From Sulfurimonas sp. (GTDB taxonomy: Bacteria > Campylobacterota > Campylobacteria > Campylobacterales > Sulfurimonadaceae), in NCBI RefSeq assembly GCF_026988655.1, contig NZ_JALSKT010000048.1, positions 1 through 32,650 of the forward strand: 32,650 bases of DNA. The letters run 5' to 3'. Shown in pieces: positions 13,911 through 28,536 of the stretch. Position 1 is the stretch's first letter, and each line of letters begins with the position of its first letter. The notes below the pieces were generated by a model that saw only the letters and a program-made list of their open reading frames with translations, had not been told where the DNA came from and did no database searches. The position numbers were made by a program, and so were the translations under genes.

Positions 13911-13932
13911 GAAAAGTTTTAAGAAACTTTTC
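13911..13932. terminator. Shared bidirectional terminator between comM and the RND pump gene
   Basis: Perfect 9-bp stem GAAAAGTTT / AAACTTTTC with loop TAAG, directly after the comM stop (13908-13910) and covering the last codons and stop of the convergent RND gene. The arms give A-rich/T-rich flanks on both strands. Confidence 0.65.
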
Positions 13933-16900
13933 CTACTTCATACCATTTTCTTAGCCATGCGTCTATGGGGTTGATAAGTTTGTAGATAACAGGCACAATA
14001 AAGAGTGTTAAAATCATAGAACTTATAAGTCCACCGATAATAGAAATAGCCATTGGTGCTTTTGTTTCACTTCCTAGTCCGTCACCTAGTGCTAGAGGTA
14101 GCATTGCAAAAACCATAGCAAAAGTTGTCATAAGAATTGGTCTAAGTCTTTTTTCTCCAGCTTCAAGCAGTGCTTCATCGGCATTTTTACCCTCTTTGAT
14201 AGCTAGGTTTGCAAAGTCTACAAGTAAAACAGCATTTTTCCCAACCATACCCATAAGAAGCATAAACCCAATCATAACAAACAGAGAAAAATGTAGGTGA
14301 CTCAAATAGAGTGCTAACATAACACCGATGATGCTCAGAGGCAGTGCAAACATGATGATAATGGGTTGAATAAGTGACTCATACAAAATAGCTAAAATAA
14401 TAAACATTAAGATAAGTGAAAGTCCAATGGCAACACCAAAAGCTTTTCCTGTTTTTGCCATCTCTTCAGCAAATCCTGTAAATCTATATGTTACATCTTT
14501 TGGCATAAGCTCATCAATCTTTGCATTTGTATAGTTGACTGCACCACCTAGGTCGAGTCCAAAAAGATCAGCATAGACTGTCACTTGTCTTTGTCTATCA
14601 TAATGATAAATAGTTGCTTGAGAAGCGCCTTTAGAAATTGCTACAAGTCCATCAAGATAGACTAAGTCACCATTTTTTGTGCGTAGTTGAATCTTTTTGA
14701 GATCATTAAGACTTTGACGGTTTGCATCGTCAAATCTGAGTGTGATGTTGTACTGTTTTCCATTCTCTTCAAAGTGAGATATTTCTATATCACTTGAAAA
14801 AGCTGTTGCAATTGCACTTGCAATTTGTGTTGCACTAATGCCTAAACGACTTGCATTTTCTCTCAAAATAGTTATATTGTATTGTGGTTTTGGGTCATCA
14901 AGATTTGTATCTACATCTACAAAACCTTTTTTTGCTTTGAGATAAGTTACAAGATTTGTTTTCGCTTTTTGCAATGAATCAAAAGAGTCAGATTTGAGCA
15001 CAATTTGATAAGGGACACTCACCCCTGCACCTTTGATGTTAGGAATAGCAGCAGCGGTGATAAACATATCCTCAGCATAAGGCTTGAGCGCTGCTCTGGT
15101 GTTTTGAATGATTTGCTCTTGACCAAGAGAACGTTCTGTTTTTGGGAGGAGTTTTACATAGATAAGGGCTTTATTCTTCTCTTTAGCAGAGTTATAAGCA
15201 ACACTTAAAGTTGTAAAGGCTACATTGTCATTTTTTTTGATAGCATCTTCAATTATTTTTGATTTATGTATCATATACTCTAGTGAAATACCTGGTTGTG
15301 CTTTGATTTTTACTTCAAATTCGGACTTATCTTCTTTTGGTATAAAATCCATACCTATTTTTGGAAAGAGCGAAAGCGAACCAACAAAAAGAGCTAAAAC
15401 AAGTAAGAGCGTGACAATTTTAAAGCGTAAGACAACTTTTAAAAGCAGGGCATAGATCTTATCTATAAAGACAAAAATAGGCTCAGTTAGATTATAAAAC
15501 TTACTTTCGCCTTTGTTCAGTATACGTGCACTAAAACTTGGTATAAATGAAAGTGCTATGGTGTAAGAGATAATGATGGCAAAACCAACAGTCATAGCAA
15601 AACTCTCAAAGAATTTTCCTACAATTCCACTCATATTTGAAACAGGCATAAAAACTGCAAGAAGCATAGCTGAGATAGCAAAGATTGCAAAAGCCATCTC
15701 TTTGGTTCCCTCATAAGCGGCTTCAAATTTGCCCATACCAGATTCAAGTTTTTTATAAATGTTTTCTATGACCACAATGGCATCATCTATAATGATACCT
15801 ATAGCTAATGTTAATCCTATAAGCGTCATCTTGTTGAGTTCATAATGCATCACATCCATCAGAGCAAATGTACCTAAAATAGAGGCTGGAATAGAGAGTG
15901 CTGAAATAAGAGTAATAGTGAAGTTTCGTAAAAAAACAAAAATAATAATAGCTGCAAGTAGTGCACCATAAATAAGGTCAAACTTTACATCTTCAAGTGA
16001 GTTAATGATGAAAGGGGTTGTGTCTTGTAATGTTTTTACCTCAAATCTATCTCCTGCTAGTTTTTGTAACTTCGGAATAGTGTTTTTCACACGTTGGACG
16101 ATATCGATGGTATTTGTGCCAGAAATTTTTTGAATCTCAAGCATAACACCAGGAACGCCGTTATAAGAAGAGTAACTGTCTGCATCACTAAGGGTATCTT
16201 TAACGCTTGCAACATCTTTGAGTCTGATACTATCTTTGATTTTCATATTTTGTAAATCTTGGACACTGAGTGCATCGGCATGAACTTTTAAAATATATTC
16301 ATTTTTATCCGTGATAAGTTTTCCACCACCAATTTTTACATTTTCATTTGTGACAGCACGGTTAAGCTCAAGAACTGTGATACCATACTTGTTGAGTGCA
16401 TCGATATCGGGAAAGATTTTTATCTCTCTATCTCTATATCCGATGATATTGACACCACCCACACCCGTTATCTTTTGCAAAGCAGGTTTGGCTTTTTCAT
16501 CTGCAAAAATCATAAGCTTTGCTAAAGAATCATTCTTTGCGGTTAAGAAGACATTGATGATGGAAGCTCCCCCGATGTCGAGCTTACTTACAAGTGGTGT
16601 TTTGGCATCTCTTGGGAGATCAACTGCGGATACTTTGTCACGTACATCATTAGTAGCCTCATCAATGTTACGTTCTAAAAAGAACTTCACCATGATGATA
16701 CTTGCTCCATCTGTGCTCGTAGAAGTGATGCTGTCCACGCCACCGATTTGAGAGATGGCTTCTTCGATTTTATCTGTTACTTGTGACTCTATTGTGCTTG
16801 GCTCAGCACCTGGATATATTGTCTTTACTGTGACTATTGGAAAGTCAATGTTTGGATAGAGTGCTGAGGGCATACTCTTAAAACTCATATATCCAAATAT

Positions 16901-16960
16901 CATCAGTGTAACAACGTACATTAATGTTGTTATAGGTCTGTTGATTGCTAATTTATACAT
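13919..16960 (-). CDS. RND-family multidrug efflux transporter, inner-membrane subunit (AcrB/HAE1 type)
   Basis: 1013 residues. Trimeric proton-driven pump that exports hydrophobic compounds through a MFP-TolC conduit. The N-terminal helix (residues 10-30) is followed by a porter domain, a helix bundle at about 330-530, a second porter domain and a second bundle at about 840-1000. The proton-relay residues of AcrB are kept: paired Asp near 391-392 in GIIIDDAIVVIEN, and Lys near 908 in GMVGKNAVLLVDF. This places it in the drug (HAE1) rather than metal (HME) group. It is the last gene of tetR-tolC-MFP-RND; six bases separate it from the MFP gene. The actual substrates are unknown. Confidence 0.93.
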   Translation of the reverse strand: MYKLAINRPITTLMYVVTLMIFGYMSFKSMPSALYPNIDFPIVTVKTIYPGAEPSTIESQVTDKIEEAISQIGGVDSITSTSTDGASIIMVKFFLERNIDEATNDVRDKVSAVDLPRDAKTPLVSKLDIGGASIINVFLTAKNDSLAKLMIFADEKAKPALQKITGVGGVNIIGYRDREIKIFPDIDALNKYGITVLELNRAVTNENVKIGGGKLITDKNEYILKVHADALSVQDLQNMKIKDSIRLKDVASVKDTLSDADSYSSYNGVPGVMLEIQKISGTNTIDIVQRVKNTIPKLQKLAGDRFEVKTLQDTTPFIINSLEDVKFDLIYGALLAAIIIFVFLRNFTITLISALSIPASILGTFALMDVMHYELNKMTLIGLTLAIGIIIDDAIVVIENIYKKLESGMGKFEAAYEGTKEMAFAIFAISAMLLAVFMPVSNMSGIVGKFFESFAMTVGFAIIISYTIALSFIPSFSARILNKGESKFYNLTEPIFVFIDKIYALLLKVVLRFKIVTLLLVLALFVGSLSLFPKIGMDFIPKEDKSEFEVKIKAQPGISLEYMIHKSKIIEDAIKKNDNVAFTTLSVAYNSAKEKNKALIYVKLLPKTERSLGQEQIIQNTRAALKPYAEDMFITAAAIPNIKGAGVSVPYQIVLKSDSFDSLQKAKTNLVTYLKAKKGFVDVDTNLDDPKPQYNITILRENASRLGISATQIASAIATAFSSDIEISHFEENGKQYNITLRFDDANRQSLNDLKKIQLRTKNGDLVYLDGLVAISKGASQATIYHYDRQRQVTVYADLFGLDLGGAVNYTNAKIDELMPKDVTYRFTGFAEEMAKTGKAFGVAIGLSLILMFIILAILYESLIQPIIIMFALPLSIIGVMLALYLSHLHFSLFVMIGFMLLMGMVGKNAVLLVDFANLAIKEGKNADEALLEAGEKRLRPILMTTFAMVFAMLPLALGDGLGSETKAPMAISIIGGLISSMILTLFIVPVIYKLINPIDAWLRKWYEVGKVS

Positions 16961-16966
16961 AAAAAC

Positions 16967-17683
16967 CTACTTTTTTGCTTGTGTTTGTGTGTGTATATAA
17001 CCATCACCAAAAAGTCCTGGTAGAAAATTATCAGCTTTTACTTCTGCGTTTATTTTTCTATCTTGCAGGTTTGCTCTTGGATAAACTTTTGATATTTTAG
17101 CACTGTATTTTTTTGTATCTCCGTCAAGTTTATACTGAAATAGATCACCAACCTTGACAAGTTTTCTGTTTTTTTGATCAAAAGAAAGAAGTAGTTTACG
17201 TTTTGATCCACTTTGAATCTTAAACGCAGTACGAAGCATCATACCACTCACTGCATCCCCGATCTCTATCTCTTTGTCATAGATGACCCCAGTAAAAGGT
17301 GCTTTAAGAAAGGTCTTATTGTAGAGGGCTTGTTGATAGGCAAGTTGATTTTTTGCACTTTCATATTTGTTAGCAACTGCATCAAATTTTGCTTCATCGA
17401 TAAGACTTTTGATCTTGAGTTGTCTTTCATAATCTTTTTGTGCATATTTGTAAGTAGTTTTTGCTACTTCAAGCATGGCTTTGATGTCACTGTTTTGAAG
17501 CTCTGCTAAGATTTCACCTTTTTTTACCTTAGAACCAACCGTGACATAAATTTTATTGACGATACCGCTGGCAATAAAAGCGAGATTTGCATCTTTATCT
17601 GCTTTGACGATAAATGTTGTGTAAACATCAGCAGCATTTGTAAGACTCACTAACATGATAAGTGTAAGTAGTATTTTTTTCAT
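16967..17683 (-). CDS. Efflux periplasmic adaptor (membrane-fusion protein), short form
   Basis: 238 residues. Links the RND pump to the outer-membrane channel. A cleavable signal peptide (MKKILLTLIMLVSLTNA) precedes the first lipoyl half (SGIVNKIYVTVGSKVKKGEILAEL cut as SGIVNKIYVTVGSKV and GEILAEL). A helical hairpin (about 70-130) and the second lipoyl half (FLKAPFTGVIYDKEIEIGD) follow, then a beta-barrel. Typical adaptors are 350-400 residues; the helical hairpin is short and the membrane-proximal domain seems missing. No lipobox Cys. The ATG overlaps the tolC-like stop by one base. Two AAACGCAG motifs lie inside. Confidence 0.85.
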   Translation of the reverse strand: MKKILLTLIMLVSLTNAADVYTTFIVKADKDANLAFIASGIVNKIYVTVGSKVKKGEILAELQNSDIKAMLEVAKTTYKYAQKDYERQLKIKSLIDEAKFDAVANKYESAKNQLAYQQALYNKTFLKAPFTGVIYDKEIEIGDAVSGMMLRTAFKIQSGSKRKLLLSFDQKNRKLVKVGDLFQYKLDGDTKKYSAKISKVYPRANLQDRKINAEVKADNFLPGLFGDGYIHTQTQAKK

Positions 17684-18927
17684 TATTTTATTTCCTCTTG
17701 TATATTTTTTCCACTGTAGTAGTAATAGGTTGCATATGCAACTTCTAAGTCATTTAAAGAGCTCTCATACAGTGCTTTTGAACTTGTCTTTTTTGTGAGT
17801 GCATCAAGATAGATGATATAGTCAACTATGCCCGCATTGTATTTTTTCTCTATGGTATGAAAGGCACTCTTGGCTGCGTTTAGCGCACTTTTTGCACTTA
17901 AAATCTTGAGTTTTGCTGTGGCAATCCTTGCTTTTGCGAGTTCATACTCTGTTTGTTGCTCTTTTGTTTGGTAGTTTATCTGTGCATTGAGTACTTTTGC
18001 ATTGAGGCGTACTGCTTCTTTTGAGCTGCTGATTTGACCGAAATCAAAAAGACGCATATTTACTGTAAGCATGATTTTATTTTGATTATCAAGCGGATTT
18101 GCTAAGGCTTTTGTTTGTGGGTCAAGTCTATCATATCCATAAACCGAGAAGGTGTCTTCTATGCGTATATTTGGATAGTAAAAGCTATCTACTGCGTTTG
18201 AAGCTGCATTTATGGCATTTTTTTGTGCAATGATGGCTTGTATATTTTCTAATGTTGCAAAATTTTCGTTTTCTTCTTTCTTAAACGCAGTAGCTTCAAA
18301 GCTTTTGATTTTTGCACCTGTTGTTAGCTCAAGTTTTGATTTTAAAGAGAGAATGTCAAACTTAATGGTTTCAATATTGTAGATATTGGTGTCGTAGTCA
18401 GCTTGGACTCTTTGAACATCATCAATTGTTGCCATTTTCGCTTCATAAAATTTTGTTATTTTTTCTAGTTGTGCTTTGAGTGTTTTTTGTGCTTCTTCTC
18501 TTGCATTGAGTGAAGCTTGCAAACTCTTAATGGCAAAAAAATCTTGTGTGATGCCTAATGCGAGTGACTTTTTGTATGCAGTTGTCTCAAACGCAGCAGA
18601 TTGGAGTGTTTGTGCTTTTTCATCTACTAAAGCACTGCGTTTACCACCATCATAGATATCAAAACCTACTTTGGCAAAGGCACTGTATATATCGCCTGCT
18701 TGAAAAGGAGTGGCTGCATCATCACGTTTGTAAAAACCACCAATATCAACCGTTGGATAGTAGCTACTTTTTTGAGAATCAAGCGCTTGTGCTTTTGAAG
18801 CTTCATTGTATTTTTTTGCCGTGACTAAGTCATTGTGTTTTTGTGCTAAATCTATAAGTTCTTTAAGATTTTGGGCACAAAGTAGGGCAGGAACTAAAAC
18901 AAGAAATGTTGCAATGCTTTTTTTCAT
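17683..18927 (-). CDS. TolC-family outer-membrane efflux protein
   Basis: 414 residues. Trimeric outer-membrane channel of the tripartite pump. A signal peptide (MKKSIATFLVLVPALLCAQ) is followed by two repeats of the outer-membrane efflux (OEP) fold with long helices rich in Ala, Lys and Gln (for example residues 20-190 and 220-400). The start is fixed by the ATGA overlap with the tetR stop (18924-18927). It carries five AAACGCAG motifs in about 770 bp, the densest stretch in the window. The gene is divergent in sequence, as is usual for TolC-like proteins, so the substrate cannot be read from it. Confidence 0.88.
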   Translation of the reverse strand: MKKSIATFLVLVPALLCAQNLKELIDLAQKHNDLVTAKKYNEASKAQALDSQKSSYYPTVDIGGFYKRDDAATPFQAGDIYSAFAKVGFDIYDGGKRSALVDEKAQTLQSAAFETTAYKKSLALGITQDFFAIKSLQASLNAREEAQKTLKAQLEKITKFYEAKMATIDDVQRVQADYDTNIYNIETIKFDILSLKSKLELTTGAKIKSFEATAFKKEENENFATLENIQAIIAQKNAINAASNAVDSFYYPNIRIEDTFSVYGYDRLDPQTKALANPLDNQNKIMLTVNMRLFDFGQISSSKEAVRLNAKVLNAQINYQTKEQQTEYELAKARIATAKLKILSAKSALNAAKSAFHTIEKKYNAGIVDYIIYLDALTKKTSSKALYESSLNDLEVAYATYYYYSGKNIQEEIK

Positions 18928-20370: not shown

Positions 20371-23300
20371 TTATACGTTATAGTATGTAGCTTCTGGATG
20401 ATACACTACTAAAGCAGAAGTTGATTGCTCAGGATGAATTTGGAATGTTTCACTCAGCTTTATGCCAAACTCTTCAGGTTTTAAGAGATTAAAAAGAGGA
20501 CGGTTGAGCTCCAAGTCGGGACAAGCTGCATACCCAAATGAGTAACGGCTTCCTTGATATCTGTTCATACGAACATCTGCTAGAGTATTTCCCTCATCTT
20601 TTGCAATGTTTAAATCAAGTCTGATTTGTTTGTGTGCTATTTCAGCAAGGGCTTCTGCGAGTTCGACACCAAGACCATGAAACTGGTAATACTCTGTATA
20701 GTCACCTCTATCATAAATCTCACGTTCCGCATCACTGATCTTGCTTCCTGCACTAACACAGGTCAGAGCAGTGACATCATGTCTATCATTATGAAAAAAG
20801 TCACTCAGGGCACGATGAGGTTTTTTTCTTTGTCTTGGAAAATTAAAAACTTCTTCGGCTCGTCCAATAATCTGACTTAAAGGTTCACGGTTGATATCTT
20901 CTTCTTTGAACCAGCCTTCACTCTCAGGAAAGAGAAGTAAAGATGAGTCATCACTTCTACATGGCCAGTACCCATAGATAATAATTGGATCAAAAAGTTT
21001 TTCATCTAAGAAACGTTTTTTGAGTTTCTCATATGCTGGCCAGACTACTTCATCTAGCTGTTTTTCATAAGCCTCTTTTGTCATACCTTTTGAGGAATAC
21101 CCCCAACGAGATTTGAAAAGAATTTTATGGTTTATCCACTCAAAGGCCATTTCAACTTGTTGCTGTGTGAGTTTGATCTCACGTCTTCCCCAGAATGGAG
21201 GCGTTGGAACAGCTACATCACGAGAAGGCATTTTAATCTCTTCAAATGGCGGGATAATATACTCTTTGACCTCTTTATGCTCTATCTCAGGTGCATCAGG
21301 ATGAAGGTTCGTGTCCATATTTCCGGCTTCTATACGGCTCATAGCTGTCACACCATCAAAGGCATCTTTACAGTAAAAAATGGGGCCATCATAAGCAGGA
21401 CGACAAAAATCATCGATGAAAGCTCGAGTAAGTGCTGCTCCACCAAGAAGAACCGGAATTTTAATGCCTTTTTCTTGTAGTATGTTGAGGTTTTCAAGCA
21501 TAACTTGTGTTGACTTTACCAATAAGCCGCTCATCCCAAGGGCTTGTGCATTTGATGTTTCAAGTGTTTGAAGAAAATTATCAAGTTCTACTTTAATTCC
21601 AAGGTTGACAACTTTATAGCCATTGTTTGAGAGGATAATGTCAACAAGATTTTTTCCAACATCATGTACATCCCCTTTGACCGTTCCTAGTATCAGTGTT
21701 GTATCTGTCTCTTTTTCAACTTTTGGAAGATAAGGTTTGAGATGATCTACTGCTTTTTTCATCGTCTCTGCAGACTGTAAAACAAAAGGCAGTTGCATCT
21801 GACCTGAGCCAAAAAGCTCACCAACGACTTTCATAGCATCAATGAGAATTTCATTTACAATTTTTTCAGGTGCAATAGTATGACGTGCCTCTTCAACAAG
21901 AGGAATCATTCTATCTTTATCTCCATCCATAAGAAGTTTTGCAATTTTTTCTTCATCATTCATAGCAAGATATGCTTCATCTACAGCATCATTATCAACT
22001 GCTTCTTTGGATGAAAAATGCTCAATAAAAGTAAAAAGTGCCTCTCCATTTGGTTTACGGTTGAAAATTAAATCATCACAAATTTCTTGATCTTCTTTTG
22101 GAATTTTATTGAGGGGGATGATATGTTTGACATTGATGATAACAGAGGTAAGTCCTGCCTGAACACAGTGGTGTAGAAACATTGAGTTTAAGTAGGGACG
22201 TGCATCTTTATCAAGCCCGAAAGAGATGTTAGAAAGTCCAAGTATTGCGCCTACTTCGGGGTGTTTCAAACGCAGTTGACGGATAGCTTCTATGGTATTG
22301 ATACCAGCTTCAAAGTACTCTTCATCTCCTGAACCAAGTGTAAAGGTGAGAACATCAAAAACCAAATCTTCTTTTTTGATGCCATGACGATTGGTTGCAA
22401 GGTCGATAATACGCTCAGCAACTTTTATCTTATCTTCAACTGTTTTTGCCATTCCAACTTCATCGATAGTCAAACAAACAAGACTCGCTCCATACTTTTT
22501 AGCAAGTTGACAAACAGCATCAAATTTTGGTTCTCCATCTTCTAGGTTAACAGAGTTGAGGATAGGTTTACCACCGATATGTTTGAGTGCTGTTTCAAGT
22601 CCCTTTGTTTGCGTAGAATCTGGCATCAAAGGAAGGGCTATTTTTTGGGCATACATAGCCATGACTTCTGTCATATCTTTAGTCTCATCACGACCAGCAA
22701 AGCCGACATTGACATCTAAAACATGCGCTCCTGCACGAACTTGTTGCTGTGCGACGGAGAGTGTCCCTTCGTAGTCCTCTGCTAAAAGCAGTTCACGAAA
22801 GGCTTTTGAACCAGTTGCATTTGAGCGTTCACCAACAAGTAGTGGAGCAGGCTCTTGCATAAGAGGCACTGTGTTAAAAAGCGATGCGATAGAGTTTACT
22901 TGTGATCCTGAAGGAGCTTTTGGTGTATAGCTCGTTACTTTATCCACTAAAGCACGTATATGCTGTGGTGTAGTTCCACAACAGCCACCTAAAAAGCTTA
23001 CACCATCATAGGCTAAAAACTTCTCTTGCTGTGCAACAAATTCATCCGGTCCCATCGGGTAGTAAGTATAGCCACCACGGTTTTGTGGAAGCCCTGCATT
23101 GGCATGGACACTGATTGGTTTGCCCCAGAGTTCACTGAGTGTTTTGACATGTTTGAGTACCTGCTCTGGCCCTGTTCCACAGTTGAATCCAAGGGAGAGA
23201 ATATCAAAAGGCTCAAGAATTGTTGCGATAGTTTCAGCGTCAGTTCCGATAAGCATAGTCCCGCTGAGTTCAATAGTCACAGAAACCATGATAGGGATTT

Positions 23301-23859
23301 GCACTTCTCTTTGTCTGCAAGCCTCTTGTATAGCATGTAAGGCTGCTTTTATCTGCAGTGGATCTTGTGCGGTTTCAATCAAGAAAACATCAACACCACC
23401 ATCAATAAGTGCGAGACAAAATTCTGTATATCCTGCATACATTTCATCGTAGGTGATGTGTCCTAGAGATGGGAGTTTTGTTCCTGGTCCTATAGAACCT
23501 AAACAAAAACGGGGATGCTCTAGTGTTGAAAAAGCTTCACACTGTTTTTTGACAAGTTCTGCTCCGGCTTTTGTGAGCTCATAGGCACGATGGCCAATTT
23601 GATACTCATCAAGTACCCAAGAAAAGGAGCCAAAAGTATTTGTTGTGATAAAATCTGCACCCGCTGTAAGATAAGCTTTAAAAATATCGTTCATAATCTC
23701 AGGAGCTGTAACATTTAAAAGCTCATTGCACCCCTCATTATTTTCCCATGCTTCTTTAGGTATTTGATCATCACGTTGTTGGAGTTGCGTTCCCATAGCA
23801 CCATCGATGATGAGAGGGCGTTTTGTAATGGTTTTTAGAATATACTGTTTTGTTGTCAT
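20371..23859 (-). CDS. metH: Cobalamin-dependent methionine synthase
   Basis: 1162 residues, full modular enzyme. Transfers methyl from methyl-tetrahydrofolate to homocysteine through methylcobalamin. Order: homocysteine/zinc domain (GFNCGTG near 227 and GGCCGT near 293 supply three Cys ligands), folate-binding barrel (VGERSNATGSKAF), helical cap, B12 domain with DVHDVG near 730 (His is the lower cobalt ligand), and the C-terminal SAM reactivation domain (ending ...YHPEATYY). All modules are intact. No cobalamin riboswitch is recognisable in the 163-bp leader. One AAACGCAG motif (22268-22275), read as Leu-Arg-Leu. Confidence 0.97.
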   Translation of the reverse strand: MTTKQYILKTITKRPLIIDGAMGTQLQQRDDQIPKEAWENNEGCNELLNVTAPEIMNDIFKAYLTAGADFITTNTFGSFSWVLDEYQIGHRAYELTKAGAELVKKQCEAFSTLEHPRFCLGSIGPGTKLPSLGHITYDEMYAGYTEFCLALIDGGVDVFLIETAQDPLQIKAALHAIQEACRQREVQIPIMVSVTIELSGTMLIGTDAETIATILEPFDILSLGFNCGTGPEQVLKHVKTLSELWGKPISVHANAGLPQNRGGYTYYPMGPDEFVAQQEKFLAYDGVSFLGGCCGTTPQHIRALVDKVTSYTPKAPSGSQVNSIASLFNTVPLMQEPAPLLVGERSNATGSKAFRELLLAEDYEGTLSVAQQQVRAGAHVLDVNVGFAGRDETKDMTEVMAMYAQKIALPLMPDSTQTKGLETALKHIGGKPILNSVNLEDGEPKFDAVCQLAKKYGASLVCLTIDEVGMAKTVEDKIKVAERIIDLATNRHGIKKEDLVFDVLTFTLGSGDEEYFEAGINTIEAIRQLRLKHPEVGAILGLSNISFGLDKDARPYLNSMFLHHCVQAGLTSVIINVKHIIPLNKIPKEDQEICDDLIFNRKPNGEALFTFIEHFSSKEAVDNDAVDEAYLAMNDEEKIAKLLMDGDKDRMIPLVEEARHTIAPEKIVNEILIDAMKVVGELFGSGQMQLPFVLQSAETMKKAVDHLKPYLPKVEKETDTTLILGTVKGDVHDVGKNLVDIILSNNGYKVVNLGIKVELDNFLQTLETSNAQALGMSGLLVKSTQVMLENLNILQEKGIKIPVLLGGAALTRAFIDDFCRPAYDGPIFYCKDAFDGVTAMSRIEAGNMDTNLHPDAPEIEHKEVKEYIIPPFEEIKMPSRDVAVPTPPFWGRREIKLTQQQVEMAFEWINHKILFKSRWGYSSKGMTKEAYEKQLDEVVWPAYEKLKKRFLDEKLFDPIIIYGYWPCRSDDSSLLLFPESEGWFKEEDINREPLSQIIGRAEEVFNFPRQRKKPHRALSDFFHNDRHDVTALTCVSAGSKISDAEREIYDRGDYTEYYQFHGLGVELAEALAEIAHKQIRLDLNIAKDEGNTLADVRMNRYQGSRYSFGYAACPDLELNRPLFNLLKPEEFGIKLSETFQIHPEQSTSALVVYHPEATYYNV

Positions 23860-26332: not shown

Positions 26333-26372
26333 TTGACGGATTAAAGGAAAAATAATTGACTTTAATCGTCAA
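26333..26372. promoter_or_regulatory. Inverted repeat overlapping the promoter of the resolvase-like gene
   Basis: TTGACGGATTAAAG (26333-26346) and CTTTAATCGTCAA (26360-26372) are inverted copies matching over 13 bases with one extra G in the left arm. The right arm covers the -35 box (26356-26361). It could end transcription of the barrel gene, but there is no T run after it, so an operator or attenuator for the next gene fits as well. Confidence 0.55.
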
Positions 26373-26385
26373 CTTGAGCTATAAT
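26356..26385 (+). promoter_or_regulatory. Sigma-70-type promoter of the resolvase-like/ccoG operon
   Basis: TTGACT (26356-26361), 18-bp spacer, TATAAT (26380-26385), 40 bp before the ATG at 26425. It is the only canonical two-box promoter I see in the window. Confidence 0.65.
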
Positions 26386-26424
26386 GACGATGAAATTAAA
26401 AATAAAGAGAGGTTTTATCGTTAA

Positions 26425-27060
26425 ATGGTACTAGCATACATACGTCCAGATAAAAACTTTCTCGCGGCACACGAACAATTACAACACATAAATGCATACG
26501 CTTTGGTAAACGATATCATCATAGATGATGAATTAGTTGATCATACCTCTCAAAACAAACGTCTTGAAGATAGAACAAATGTGACAAAATATTTTCAAGC
26601 ACATCAAGAGTCTACTCTACTCGTTTATGATGTTTGGGTTTTGAGTACAGATATGGAAGATTTGATTCAAATGGTAAGTTGTTTAATGAAAAACAACTAC
26701 AATGTTCATTTTGTAAAACATTCTGTCATAATGTCACAACAAAGTAGTGCAATGTTGATACTTGGTCTGATGGATCAGTTACGTCAAAAAATGCAGGCAA
26801 ATGCAAAAAGGGTAATTGGTCGTCCAAAAGGAAGTAAGTCGAGTTCTAAGTTTGATGTCTACATCAATGAAGTTCTACAGTACATTAAAGAAGGAAAAAG
26901 TGTGAGTGAAATGGCACGACTCTTAAGTGTTAGTAGAAGTTCATTAAAGGATTACATTGAGTCTCGAGAGTTAAAGCAGGTTGCTTTTGGTTCTTTAGTA
27001 CAAGAAGTTTCAGAAAATGCAGAAGAAGTAGTTATCAATACTATTGTCTGTCCAAAATAA
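26425..27060 (+). CDS. Resolvase-fold protein with HTH, catalytic residues lost; possible regulator of ccoG
   Basis: 211 residues laid out like a small serine recombinase. A Rossmann-like N-terminal domain (VLAYIRPDK...; LLVYDVWVLSTDMEDL; NVHFV) precedes a long helix (LILGLMDQLRQKMQANAKR), the linker GRPKGSK (132-138), and a helix-turn-helix (KSVSEMARLLSVSRSSLKDY, 158-177). The recombinase YxRVST motif with its nucleophilic serine reads YIRPDK here, and the DRLxR arginine motif reads WVLSTD. It should not cut DNA, so DNA binding is the likely remaining activity. The stop is 15 bp before ccoG, so they share a transcript. Confidence 0.75.
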   Translation: MVLAYIRPDKNFLAAHEQLQHINAYALVNDIIIDDELVDHTSQNKRLEDRTNVTKYFQAHQESTLLVYDVWVLSTDMEDLIQMVSCLMKNNYNVHFVKHSVIMSQQSSAMLILGLMDQLRQKMQANAKRVIGRPKGSKSSSKFDVYINEVLQYIKEGKSVSEMARLLSVSRSSLKDYIESRELKQVAFGSLVQEVSENAEEVVINTIVCPK

Positions 27061-27075: not shown

Positions 27076-28536
27076 ATGAGTGAAAAGAAAAAAAGTAAGG
27101 GTATTGAGATACCTACACCTTGGAGAATCAAGCGATATTATCTATACTCAATAGTAACTATAGTTGCTTTAATTTTACCGTGGATTCAGATAAATGGGCA
27201 TCATTTCTTTCTACTAAGTTTTGATAAAATGAAACTTGATCTTGCGTTTGTACGTTTTGATATGCAAGAACTTTATTTAATGCCATTTTTGTTAATGTTA
27301 CTGTTTATCACTATTTTTGGTATGACAGTAATGGGTGGACGTGTTTTTTGTGGTTGGGTTTGTCCTCAGACAGTTTTTCGTGTCATTTATCGTGATTTGA
27401 TTGAAACAAAACTTCTTAAACTTCGTAAACGTATTGGAAACAAACAACAAGAACCTGATATGACGAAACCTGAAAATAAGGTGAAAAAGTCTATAGCCAT
27501 TTTACTATGGACTATCTTAGCTCTTATTGCTGGGGCTGACTTTATTTGGTACTTTGTTCCACCAGAGGATTTTTTCAAATATCTTAGTAATCCAGGTGAT
27601 CATATGACTATGATTGGTTTTGTTCTTGGTATTGCAGCATTTTTGATTTATGATATAGTTTTTCTTAAAGAAAACTTTTGTATTTATGTATGTCCATACT
27701 CTCGTGTACAATCAGTACTTTATGATGAACATACAATTATGGCACTCTATGATGAACATCGTGGTGGAAAAATTTATGAAAATGATGGTCAAACGCACCA
27801 TAAAGTGGTTGAGAAACAAAAAGATCTTCAAGCAATTGATCCAAATGCAGAATGTACAACTTGTGAAAAATGTGTGACTGTTTGTCCTACACATATTGAT
27901 ATCCGTCAAGGTTTACAACTAGAGTGTATCAACTGTCTTGAGTGTGTGGATGCTTGTACAACTGTTATGGGTAAACTTGGAAAACCTTCTTTGGTTACTT
28001 GGTCAAGTGATTATGAGATCGTTGAGCGAAAAGGAAAAACAAAATATTTCCGTCCAAAAGTTATTGCATATATGGTTTTACTTGTAGGGCTTATGGTTGC
28101 TCTTGCATATATGAGTACAACAAAAGAGCATATGCTTTTAAATATTAATAAAGAGACAAGACTCTACTCTGTAAAACATCCTAGTCCAGATAAGTTTATA
28201 GTGGAGAACTCATATATTTTCTTACTTCAAAATACTGAAGCAAGTAAAATGAAATTTTTCTTTGAAGTTGTACCTCCAAAAGGTATGGAAGGGAAAATTA
28301 CAATTGCAAAACCATCAAAACCATTTCATGTAGTTCCTGGTGTGAAAAAGAAAAAAATTGTTACGCTTAGAACGACAGAGTTGTTAGCAGATGATAAAAG
28401 AAAAGATACGATTATTCCGATTACGATTCATGCATATGCATTGGATAAAGATGGAAAACCAAGTAAATTAGTTTCTGTAATTAGACATACAACTTTTGTA
28501 TTTCCAAAAGAGAAAGTCTTAAACGCAGGAAAATAA
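27076..28536 (+). CDS. ccoG: CcoG (FixG/RdxA) cytochrome cbb3 oxidase accessory protein
   Basis: 486 residues. Membrane ferredoxin needed for copper handling in cbb3 oxidase assembly; the Rhodobacter protein is a cupric reductase. Membrane helices near 22-38, 70-88, 140-160, 178-197 and 340-358. Membrane CxxxCP motifs at Cys92/96 and Cys202/206. Two 4Fe-4S binding sets, Cys260/263/266/270 and 284/287/290/294. The periplasmic C-terminus has the FixG Ig-like fold. AAGAGGAG precedes ATG. An AAACGCAG motif lies at the 3' end (28521-28528). No ccoNOPQ or ccoI genes are in the window. Confidence 0.95.
   Translation: MSEKKKSKGIEIPTPWRIKRYYLYSIVTIVALILPWIQINGHHFFLLSFDKMKLDLAFVRFDMQELYLMPFLLMLLFITIFGMTVMGGRVFCGWVCPQTVFRVIYRDLIETKLLKLRKRIGNKQQEPDMTKPENKVKKSIAILLWTILALIAGADFIWYFVPPEDFFKYLSNPGDHMTMIGFVLGIAAFLIYDIVFLKENFCIYVCPYSRVQSVLYDEHTIMALYDEHRGGKIYENDGQTHHKVVEKQKDLQAIDPNAECTTCEKCVTVCPTHIDIRQGLQLECINCLECVDACTTVMGKLGKPSLVTWSSDYEIVERKGKTKYFRPKVIAYMVLLVGLMVALAYMSTTKEHMLLNINKETRLYSVKHPSPDKFIVENSYIFLLQNTEASKMKFFFEVVPPKGMEGKITIAKPSKPFHVVPGVKKKKIVTLRTTELLADDKRKDTIIPITIHAYALDKDGKPSKLVSVIRHTTFVFPKEKVLNAGK

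Follow-up and report, generated by a model that had tools for sequence, protein, structure and literature searches.

A serine-recombinase-like protein encoded next to ccoG in Campylobacterota as a candidate autoregulating transcription factor

In the 32,650 nt contig of Sulfurimonas sp. analyzed here (hereafter the window), an ORF with the layout of a DNA resolvase but unusual residues at the catalytic positions lies directly upstream of ccoG, which raises the question of what a recombinase-like protein does beside an oxidase assembly gene. The initial annotation proposed that the protein is a serine-recombinase fold without its active site that shares a transcript with ccoG and senses or regulates respiratory-oxidase assembly.

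Fold and conserved residues of the recombinase-like protein

The coding features on which the analysis rests are as follows.

26425..27060, + strand: regulator gene, serine-recombinase-like, 211 aa (ORF, Pfam, AF2 model and structure matches)
26437..26454, + strand: YIRPDK, a degenerate form of the catalytic motif that active enzymes have as YxRVST (sequence and family alignment)
26680..26682, + strand: codon of Cys86 (invariant, 119/119 members)
26818..26832, + strand: GRPKG linker, residues 132-136, with G132, R133, P134 and G136 invariant (family alignment)
26902..26964, + strand: predicted helix-turn-helix, about residues 160-180, with a highly conserved recognition helix region VSRSSLKDYI (alignment and AF2 model)
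27049..27051, + strand: codon of Cys209 in the C-terminal tail (118/119 members)
27076..28536, + strand: ccoG, cbb3 oxidase assembly factor and cupric reductase, the next gene after a 15 nt gap (TIGR02745)

The regulator ORF is intact and open, and its N-terminus reads MVLAYIRPDK at the YxRVST position, as the initial annotation had read it. The protein matched PF00239 Resolvase at 29.6 bits (cut-off 23.3, E 8.8e-7), while HTH_7 remained below its Pfam cut-off (18.9 vs 23.8 bits); other HTH families and a CCA-adding-enzyme domain were discarded because their Pfam scores were also below cut-off. The nearest NCBIfam model, the Mpi-type DNA invertase NF009949, scored 40.7 bits and did not meet its cut-off of 272, and the match in PHROGs was a DNA-invertase family (E 6.5e-10). 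A sequence search of the PDB returned only Tn3 resolvase (E 0.023) and the repeat protein 8vd6, which matches the HTH. The window genome contains a single match to the recombinase-like protein. Plasmid matches amounted to 35 records, each below 60% identity, and no relatives in viral contigs were found by the family alignment, for which one peptide pattern only was used. The Pfam match, the linker at residues 132-136 and the HTH at about residues 160-180 agree with the resolvase layout of N-terminal domain, long helix, GRPKG linker and HTH that had been claimed for the protein.

An AF2 model built from a 107-row alignment of the window and locus proteins had a mean pLDDT of 86 and a pTM of 0.69. 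The top PDB match in Foldseek was a Tn3 resolvase-site III complex (E 3.9e-7); a resolvase-Hin chimaera and gamma-delta resolvase came next. Over the full length, TM-scores against solved resolvases were low (0.36-0.42 by query; 0.36 for Tn3 resolvase) and the domain orientation differs; the good match is the N-terminal domain, and recombinase-domain chains reached a TM-score of 0.73 by target. Using model residues 1-132, VIA-align gave Z 12.9 for 4bqq, a serine integrase from a Streptomyces phage, and for gamma-delta resolvase (2gm5_C) a Z of 12.4, with 115 residues aligned at 2.8 A. The structure prediction suggested in the initial annotation thus yielded a model resembling Tn3/gamma-delta resolvase and serine integrases, and on this model the regulator is a serine-recombinase fold with a C-terminal HTH. 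As the pTM was 0.69 and residues 191-200 averaged a pLDDT of only 60, a contact between C86 and C209 is not established by the model.

We aligned 119 distinct family members, all of them open, and assigned columns to R8, R45, D67, R68 and R71 of gamma-delta resolvase by eye; as an internal yardstick for the catalytic columns we used the weak relative L138, in which both YVRVST and RLGR are retained. The nucleophile column contains Ser in 2/119 members and Asp in the window protein. At the DRLxR columns R68 and R71, Arg occurs in 0/119 members each, so that the absence of these arginines noted in one protein holds for the whole family, and the D67 column has Asp in one member. R50, aligned with R45 of gamma-delta resolvase, is Arg in 119/119 members; at R7, the R8 position, 95 members have Arg and 23 have Lys. 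The claim that the active site is absent therefore stands for the nucleophile and the DRLxR arginines but not for the R45 and R8 positions; with these kept, the active site has been dismantled rather than wholly erased. From the missing residues, and without an activity assay, we infer that the regulator is a catalytically dead serine recombinase.

The residues G132, R133, P134, G136, S139, S141, D144, R171, S173, D176, S180 and R181 are invariant in 119/119 members, as are Q18, R50 and C86, while K142, S170 and Y177 are kept in 118/119, making the motif SRxSxxDYxxSR nearly invariant. Cys86 is accompanied by Cys209 in 118/119 members, the latter located in a tail of variable length, and 64/119 members have exactly two cysteines in the whole protein. 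There is no CxxC-type motif among the conserved family columns, and none of 11 weak relatives has a cysteine at the place of C86 or C209. Conservation across the 119 members centres on DNA recognition and the two cysteines, not on catalysis.

A second degenerate serine-recombinase family (L128-L131 and L133-L137, in genomes of family f7) was also encountered. It is devoid of C86 and C209, and the nucleophile Ser is absent in 7/9 members. This family occupies a conserved chromosomal place, with neighbours that are presumably ubiX/coaD/tmk-like in 6/6 loci examined and rplI/hslV/hslU-like in 4/6, and TTTGTATAA-like repeats lie upstream at several loci. It is possibly another domesticated regulator.

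Linkage to ccoG and distribution of the gene

The product of the next gene matched TIGR02745 at 460.4 bits (cut-off 316.7). CcoG is described as a cupric reductase that serves the biogenesis of cbb3 oxidase, and the oxidase activity of Campylobacter jejuni lacking CcoG is reported to be down by about half (PMC8267372). We searched a genus set of 135 genomes and a phylum set of 397 genomes. In the genus, 66/135 genomes match the regulator at E 0.001, 64 of these at E <1e-80, and 127/135 have ccoG above cut-off. In the phylum, 159/397 match at E 0.001 and 98 at E <1e-20, the next match being at about 6e-10; with the best 7 candidates per genome scored, carriers number at least 98/397. These counts over genomes and loci come from related sequences and are not independent events.

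Downstream of the regulator gene, ccoG was found on the same strand in 97/98 strong carriers, distributed over many families of the order Campylobacterales; in the exception (L090), the contig ends 119 bp past the regulator gene. The neighbourhood survey hence did not find the scattered homologues that would have spoken against the initial annotation. Gaps between the two genes, measured on mechanical ORFs, are mostly -41 to +40 nt, with outliers including L041 (+176), L072 (-116), L075 (-113), L094 (-104) and L126 (-107); at L073 the only CcoG-like frame is broken or distant, and at L106 the contig breaks off with no more than the start of ccoG present. A total of 61 phylum genomes have weak matches only, and of the 11 weak relatives fetched from these (48-59 bits, all with an ORF) none has ccoG within about 6 kb; at the weak genus locus L139 no ORF was matched. 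Across 115 loci, the protein distances of the regulator are correlated with those of CcoG (Mantel r 0.82; 0/999 permutations as high), and the regulator evolves faster than CcoG (mean identity 0.41 vs 0.62). A shared transcript of the two genes fits the gap and the synteny, and remains a prediction without RNA data.

Some further observations concern the surroundings of these loci. One MAG (G088) has two full-length regulator copies on separate short contigs (C171 and C172), perhaps through strain mixing. In the window, metH lies at 20371-23859 on the - strand, opposite to ccoG, with a score above the NCBIfam cut-off, and an RND efflux operon (permease, adaptor and TolC-like protein) lies at 13919-18927 on the - strand, its best scores being below the cut-offs.

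In all 20 genus non-carriers that were read, ccoG is present at the matching locus without the regulator gene and without the operator described below (0/20). The locus was recognized by a metH-like gene upstream on the opposite strand in 19/20 genomes, the contig being short in the twentieth. A TTATAATnATTATAA box with at most one mismatch, which we take to be the Bacillus PerR consensus, precedes ccoG in 13/20 of these non-carriers (L176-L195) vs 0.09 expected from dinucleotide shuffles, and the same box occurs in 0/38 genus carriers and 3/80 other carriers (0.12 expected). With neither gene nor operator at the non-carrier locus and a PerR-like box instead, the regulator gene appears to have been lost or replaced at the same place. 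PerR/Fur-type control of ccoG is thus a relative of the system proposed here in that its putative box precedes ccoG within the same genus, but the box is absent in genus carriers, an apparent regulator swap at one locus.

Predicted operator, promoter and regulon

A conserved repeat and a promoter precede the regulator gene. The region 26333-26385, which the initial annotation had named for a DNA-binding assay, holds both.

26334..26371, + strand: O1, predicted operator, inverted repeat TGACG-N28-CGTCA of 38 bp, with the right arm inside the -35/-10 spacer (conserved repeat)
26356..26361, + strand: predicted -35 element TTGACT (geometry common to 112/119 upstream regions)
26380..26385, + strand: predicted -10 element TATAAT, spacer 18 (conserved geometry)
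26385..26423, + strand: O2, second operator-like repeat TGACG...CGTTA of 39 bp, reaching from the -10 as far as the start codon (sequence)

Family-wide, the putative operator is an inverted repeat TGACG-N28-30-CGTCA in the regulator promoters. In the 119 upstream regions, TGACG...CG(T/C)CA pairs were counted 87 times at total lengths of 38-40 bp vs 9 times at all other lengths from 15 to 60, and 84/119 regions contain any such arm pair, for which mononucleotide shuffles gave 0.008 per length. A promoter of the form TTGA(C/T)-17/18-TAnnnT was recognized in 112/119 regions; the right arm starts 11 nt after the start of the -35 in 103/112, and the left arm lies at -22 to -24 in 99/112. In the per-position profile of 111 regions, the left side reads TGACGAAAAAA and the right side TTGACTTTnnTCGTCA. 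An autoregulating transcription factor is expected to have a conserved operator that keeps a constant position within the promoter of its gene, and the predicted sites fit this, in the absence of binding or transcription data. Both arm types of the second repeat, O2, are present near the start in 29/39 upstream regions of the genus, counted loosely and without regard to spacing, and G002, G011, G012 and G017 have the O2 repeat, at 2 mismatches, next to the operator of the regulator gene. A different layout, TGACG direct repeats 19-22 bp apart in up to three copies, was seen in 20/119 upstream regions, all within L064-L098.

The strict genus pattern, TGACGN{17,22}GACTTNNNNCGTCA, was found in 53/135 genus genomes, and its reversed-pattern control in none. 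The site is present in 52/64 carriers vs 1/71 non-carriers, the sole non-carrier being G082, a genome that is 64% complete. With a slightly wider pattern for the phylum, the strict operator was found in 62/397 genomes, comprising 62/98 carriers and 0/299 non-carriers. It misses 36/98 carriers, and some of the carriers without the strict pattern have CATCA as the right arm. That an operator be found only where the regulator gene is present is a second criterion, which the predicted sites meet. The reversed control of the phylum pattern gave 11 matches in 397 genomes, so single strict sites can be chance; one strict site (L251, in G342) lies inside an ORF. Looser searches were rejected. Without its GACTT core, the pattern was uninformative in the window genome, matching 3 places vs 7 for the reversed control, and the place on C18 is inside an ORF. 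Allowing 2 mismatches returned mostly noise, with the control equalling or exceeding the matches in 5/10 genomes and both such sites of the window genome inside ORFs.

The window genome has two strict sites on different contigs, one in the promoter of the regulator gene and the other before a pair of genes that includes an M48 peptidase. The latter (G000:C84:13932-13970) lies 78 nt before the gene of a 69-aa protein with one transmembrane segment (TM), followed by the M48 peptidase gene. Other Sulfurimonas-type genomes and sister genera have the same site before the one-TM/M48 pair although the genes on the far side differ, indicating that the site follows this pair. We sampled this second target in 28/64 genus carriers and 20/71 non-carriers. 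The small protein was present in 24/28 carriers, with a site of at most one mismatch at 17/24 copies and no good site at 7/24, and in 6/20 non-carriers, with a site at 0/6 copies. A TAnnnT sequence lies 41-43 nt after the site in 17/17 cases and is TG-extended in 14/17, whereas TGnTAnnnT occurred in 15/969 other 3-nt windows. Given this distance to a mostly extended -10 and the lack of a -35 at the site itself, the layout resembles that of an activator. The small membrane protein has no Pfam match at 0.01 and no NCBIfam match at 0.001.

Apart from its site, the one-TM protein is conserved at 63-78 aa with a DYxxLxGxKK motif, has an M48-type peptidase frame next to it in the printed loci, and has no Pfam or NCBIfam match where scanned (L143:4745-4954, and the target-2 loci L197, L201-L204, L210, L211, L224, L238, L258 and L261-L263).

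Leaving aside the sites G334:C1:347691 and G485:C1:2620214, sites in sister genera precede a Pyr_redox_2 flavoprotein in G425, G261, G494 and G465. The site of G468 precedes an operon for a Nitro_FeMo-Co-domain protein, DUF6858 and this flavoprotein, that of G420 goes with a Nitro_FeMo-Co-domain protein and a rhodanese gene, and that of G484 lies before a 97-aa protein without a Pfam match; within the genus, G017 has a 1-mismatch site before DUF6858. For the three flavoproteins scanned, the best NCBIfam models were type III SQR and a SelD-linked family, but every score was far below its cut-off; 'SQR-like' therefore denotes no more than resemblance. Of the sulfur-type promoters in sister genera and other families, 5/7 (L252-L255 and L257; not L256 or L259) have a repressor-like layout, in which a TATAAT-type -10 is located 16-17 nt from the TTGACT within the site, like in the regulator's own promoter. 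Control of ccoN itself was discarded for the window genome, in which neither operator arm occurs within 400 bp upstream of ccoN. The predicted regulon is not plainly one of respiratory-oxidase assembly beyond ccoG. The initial idea of a domesticated recombinase acting as a regulator near ccoG thus gains a conserved operator at its own promoter and before a few other genes, but that the protein 'senses' is unproven and a regulon of oxidase assembly is not apparent.

Proposed mechanism, alternatives and precedents

We consider it highly probable, in the absence of expression, binding or mutant data, that a domesticated serine recombinase acts as an autoregulating, sequence-specific transcription factor that controls ccoG together with a small regulon. 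What has been computed is the dead active site, the fold, the ccoG linkage, the operator with its promoter geometry, the gene-operator co-occurrence and the small regulon; DNA binding, the dimer, the sign of regulation, cysteine sensing and the identity of the signal are inferences. The recombinase would have been domesticated long ago, before the split of many Campylobacterales families. It may bind as a dimer to the 38-40 bp inverted repeat (TGACGAAAAA...TTnnTCGTCA), the helix-turn-helix reading TGACG at each end and the GRPKG arm lying in the A/T-rich interior, an arrangement known from resolvase-DNA complexes. As the right half-site lies between the -35 and -10 elements, binding at its own promoter should block RNA polymerase, and the regulator-ccoG operon would be autorepressed. 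The one-TM protein and M48 peptidase would be activated from the upstream site, and given this activator-like position the protein may act as a dual regulator. The likely signal input would be C86, in the recombinase domain, together with C209 in the tail, through disulfide or persulfide formation or Cu(I) binding. The cysteine pair, the partnership with CcoG and the sulfur-type target genes point to a thiol switch, but sensing of sulfur species or copper through thiols is a guess, in which we place reactive sulfur first and copper close behind. The full version of this hypothesis is put forward only tentatively: a one-component thiol-sensor family built on a dead serine recombinase, whose cysteine pair senses reactive sulfur or copper. 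Such a sensor would repress sulfide-oxidation genes along with its own ccoG operon, would activate the membrane-protease pair from a fixed distance before an extended -10 and, in part of one genus, would have given way to PerR/Fur-type control of ccoG.

The resolvase fold, the Pfam match, the R45 position kept fully and the R8 position largely, and the 38-40 bp inverted repeat upstream could all be claimed for an active or conditionally active serine recombinase or invertase, which would use the repeats before ccoG to invert or resolve DNA. This is scarcely credible for a family with the nucleophile Ser in 2/119 members and Arg at the R68 and R71 positions in none; moreover, the window genome offers only two strict sites, on different contigs, one at a -35/-10 promoter and one before a small operon, and the promoter geometry is fixed in most of 112 regions. 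We rejected this reading on the lost catalytic residues, the family conservation and the co-inheritance with CcoG. We give practically no weight to a pseudogene either, that is, a degenerate mobile-element leftover that landed by chance before ccoG: the active site is lost and only 64/135 genus genomes carry the gene vs 127/135 with ccoG, but the 119 distinct members are open, with Q18, R50, C86 and GRPxG invariant and SRxSxxDYxxSR nearly so, are co-inherited with CcoG and come with a conserved operator. Residue conservation and the correlation with CcoG distances led us to reject it.

Co-occurrence of site and gene is no proof of direct contact, and without binding data the repeat might be the operator of another transcription factor while the recombinase-like protein does something else, for instance as a CcoG accessory protein. 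We regard this as improbable, considering that no strict site occurs anywhere in the genomes of 299 non-carriers, that the target-2 copies of non-carriers are devoid of the site (0/6), and that the resolvase-type HTH holds many of the most conserved residues of the family. Sites of resolvase-like dimers have outer specific bases and an inner A/T part, and the layout of the predicted operator is the same. Alternatively, the regulator is real but its signal is copper, or an iron-sulfur or redox state, rather than reactive sulfur, and C86 and C209 bind Cu(I) or a cluster. The constant partner CcoG, described as a cupric reductase, and the two conserved cysteines are compatible with this signal, which is nevertheless somewhat unlikely in view of the SQR-like, rhodanese and FeMo-co-domain genes among the sister-genus targets and the lack of a CxxC-type motif among the conserved columns.

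As a domesticated transcription factor, the regulator can be compared with several known systems. Tn3/gamma-delta resolvase (TnpR) and the Mpi, Gin and Hin invertases are alike in fold, in domain order (recombinase domain, long helix, GRPxG-type linker and HTH) and in having inverted half-sites that are A/T-rich on the inner side. TnpR is, in addition, a repressor of its own promoter. The regulator differs from these recombinases by having no DRLxR arginines and the nucleophile Ser in only 2/119 members, by being cellular and co-inherited with ccoG, by its predicted 38-40 bp operators at promoters and by scoring far below the NCBIfam invertase cut-off. Another transcription factor, TldR, has its origin in TnpB and has lost the nuclease. 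By analogy, TldR is the nearest precedent for the general idea, being a transcription factor of mobile-element origin as far as the accessible parts of the source go (PMC13418256). TldR is RNA-guided and belongs to another protein family, whereas for the regulator we propose direct protein-DNA recognition without a guide RNA. The two-cysteine sulfide/persulfide repressors BigR, SqrR and CstR resemble it in their two cysteines and in target genes of the sulfide-metabolism type, but appear to differ in fold: the model of the regulator matches serine recombinases, although the lack of ArsR- or CsoR-type folds among its structure matches carries no weight by itself, and its cysteine chemistry is inferred. 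According to the available portion of PMC5823870, BigR recognizes the -10 region of its own operon as a repressor and leaves DNA upon formation of a Cys42-Cys108 disulfide, which is sulfide-induced, and its operon keeps respiration going under sulfide (PMC5823870).

No report of a recombinase-derived regulator of ccoG was found in the literature searched, which left subscription papers mostly outside. In the accessible text of a review on mobile-element recruitment, serine recombinases figure as invertases and resolvases, and the co-opted factors are Xre/Ner types, antitoxins and RHH proteins (PMC8987985); in that of a 2019 review on respiratory regulation in Campylobacterota, the terms recombinase, resolvase and ccoG do not occur (PMC6682613).

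If the proposal is true, the serine-recombinase fold would join the scaffolds of dedicated bacterial transcription factors, with a defined operator, a regulon and probable sensing residues, and a new kind of regulator would have been built from an old recombinase. The protein would be a concrete candidate for tying copper or sulfide status to the assembly of cbb3 oxidase, and the ccoG locus, with two alternative control elements within one genus, would offer a natural experiment.
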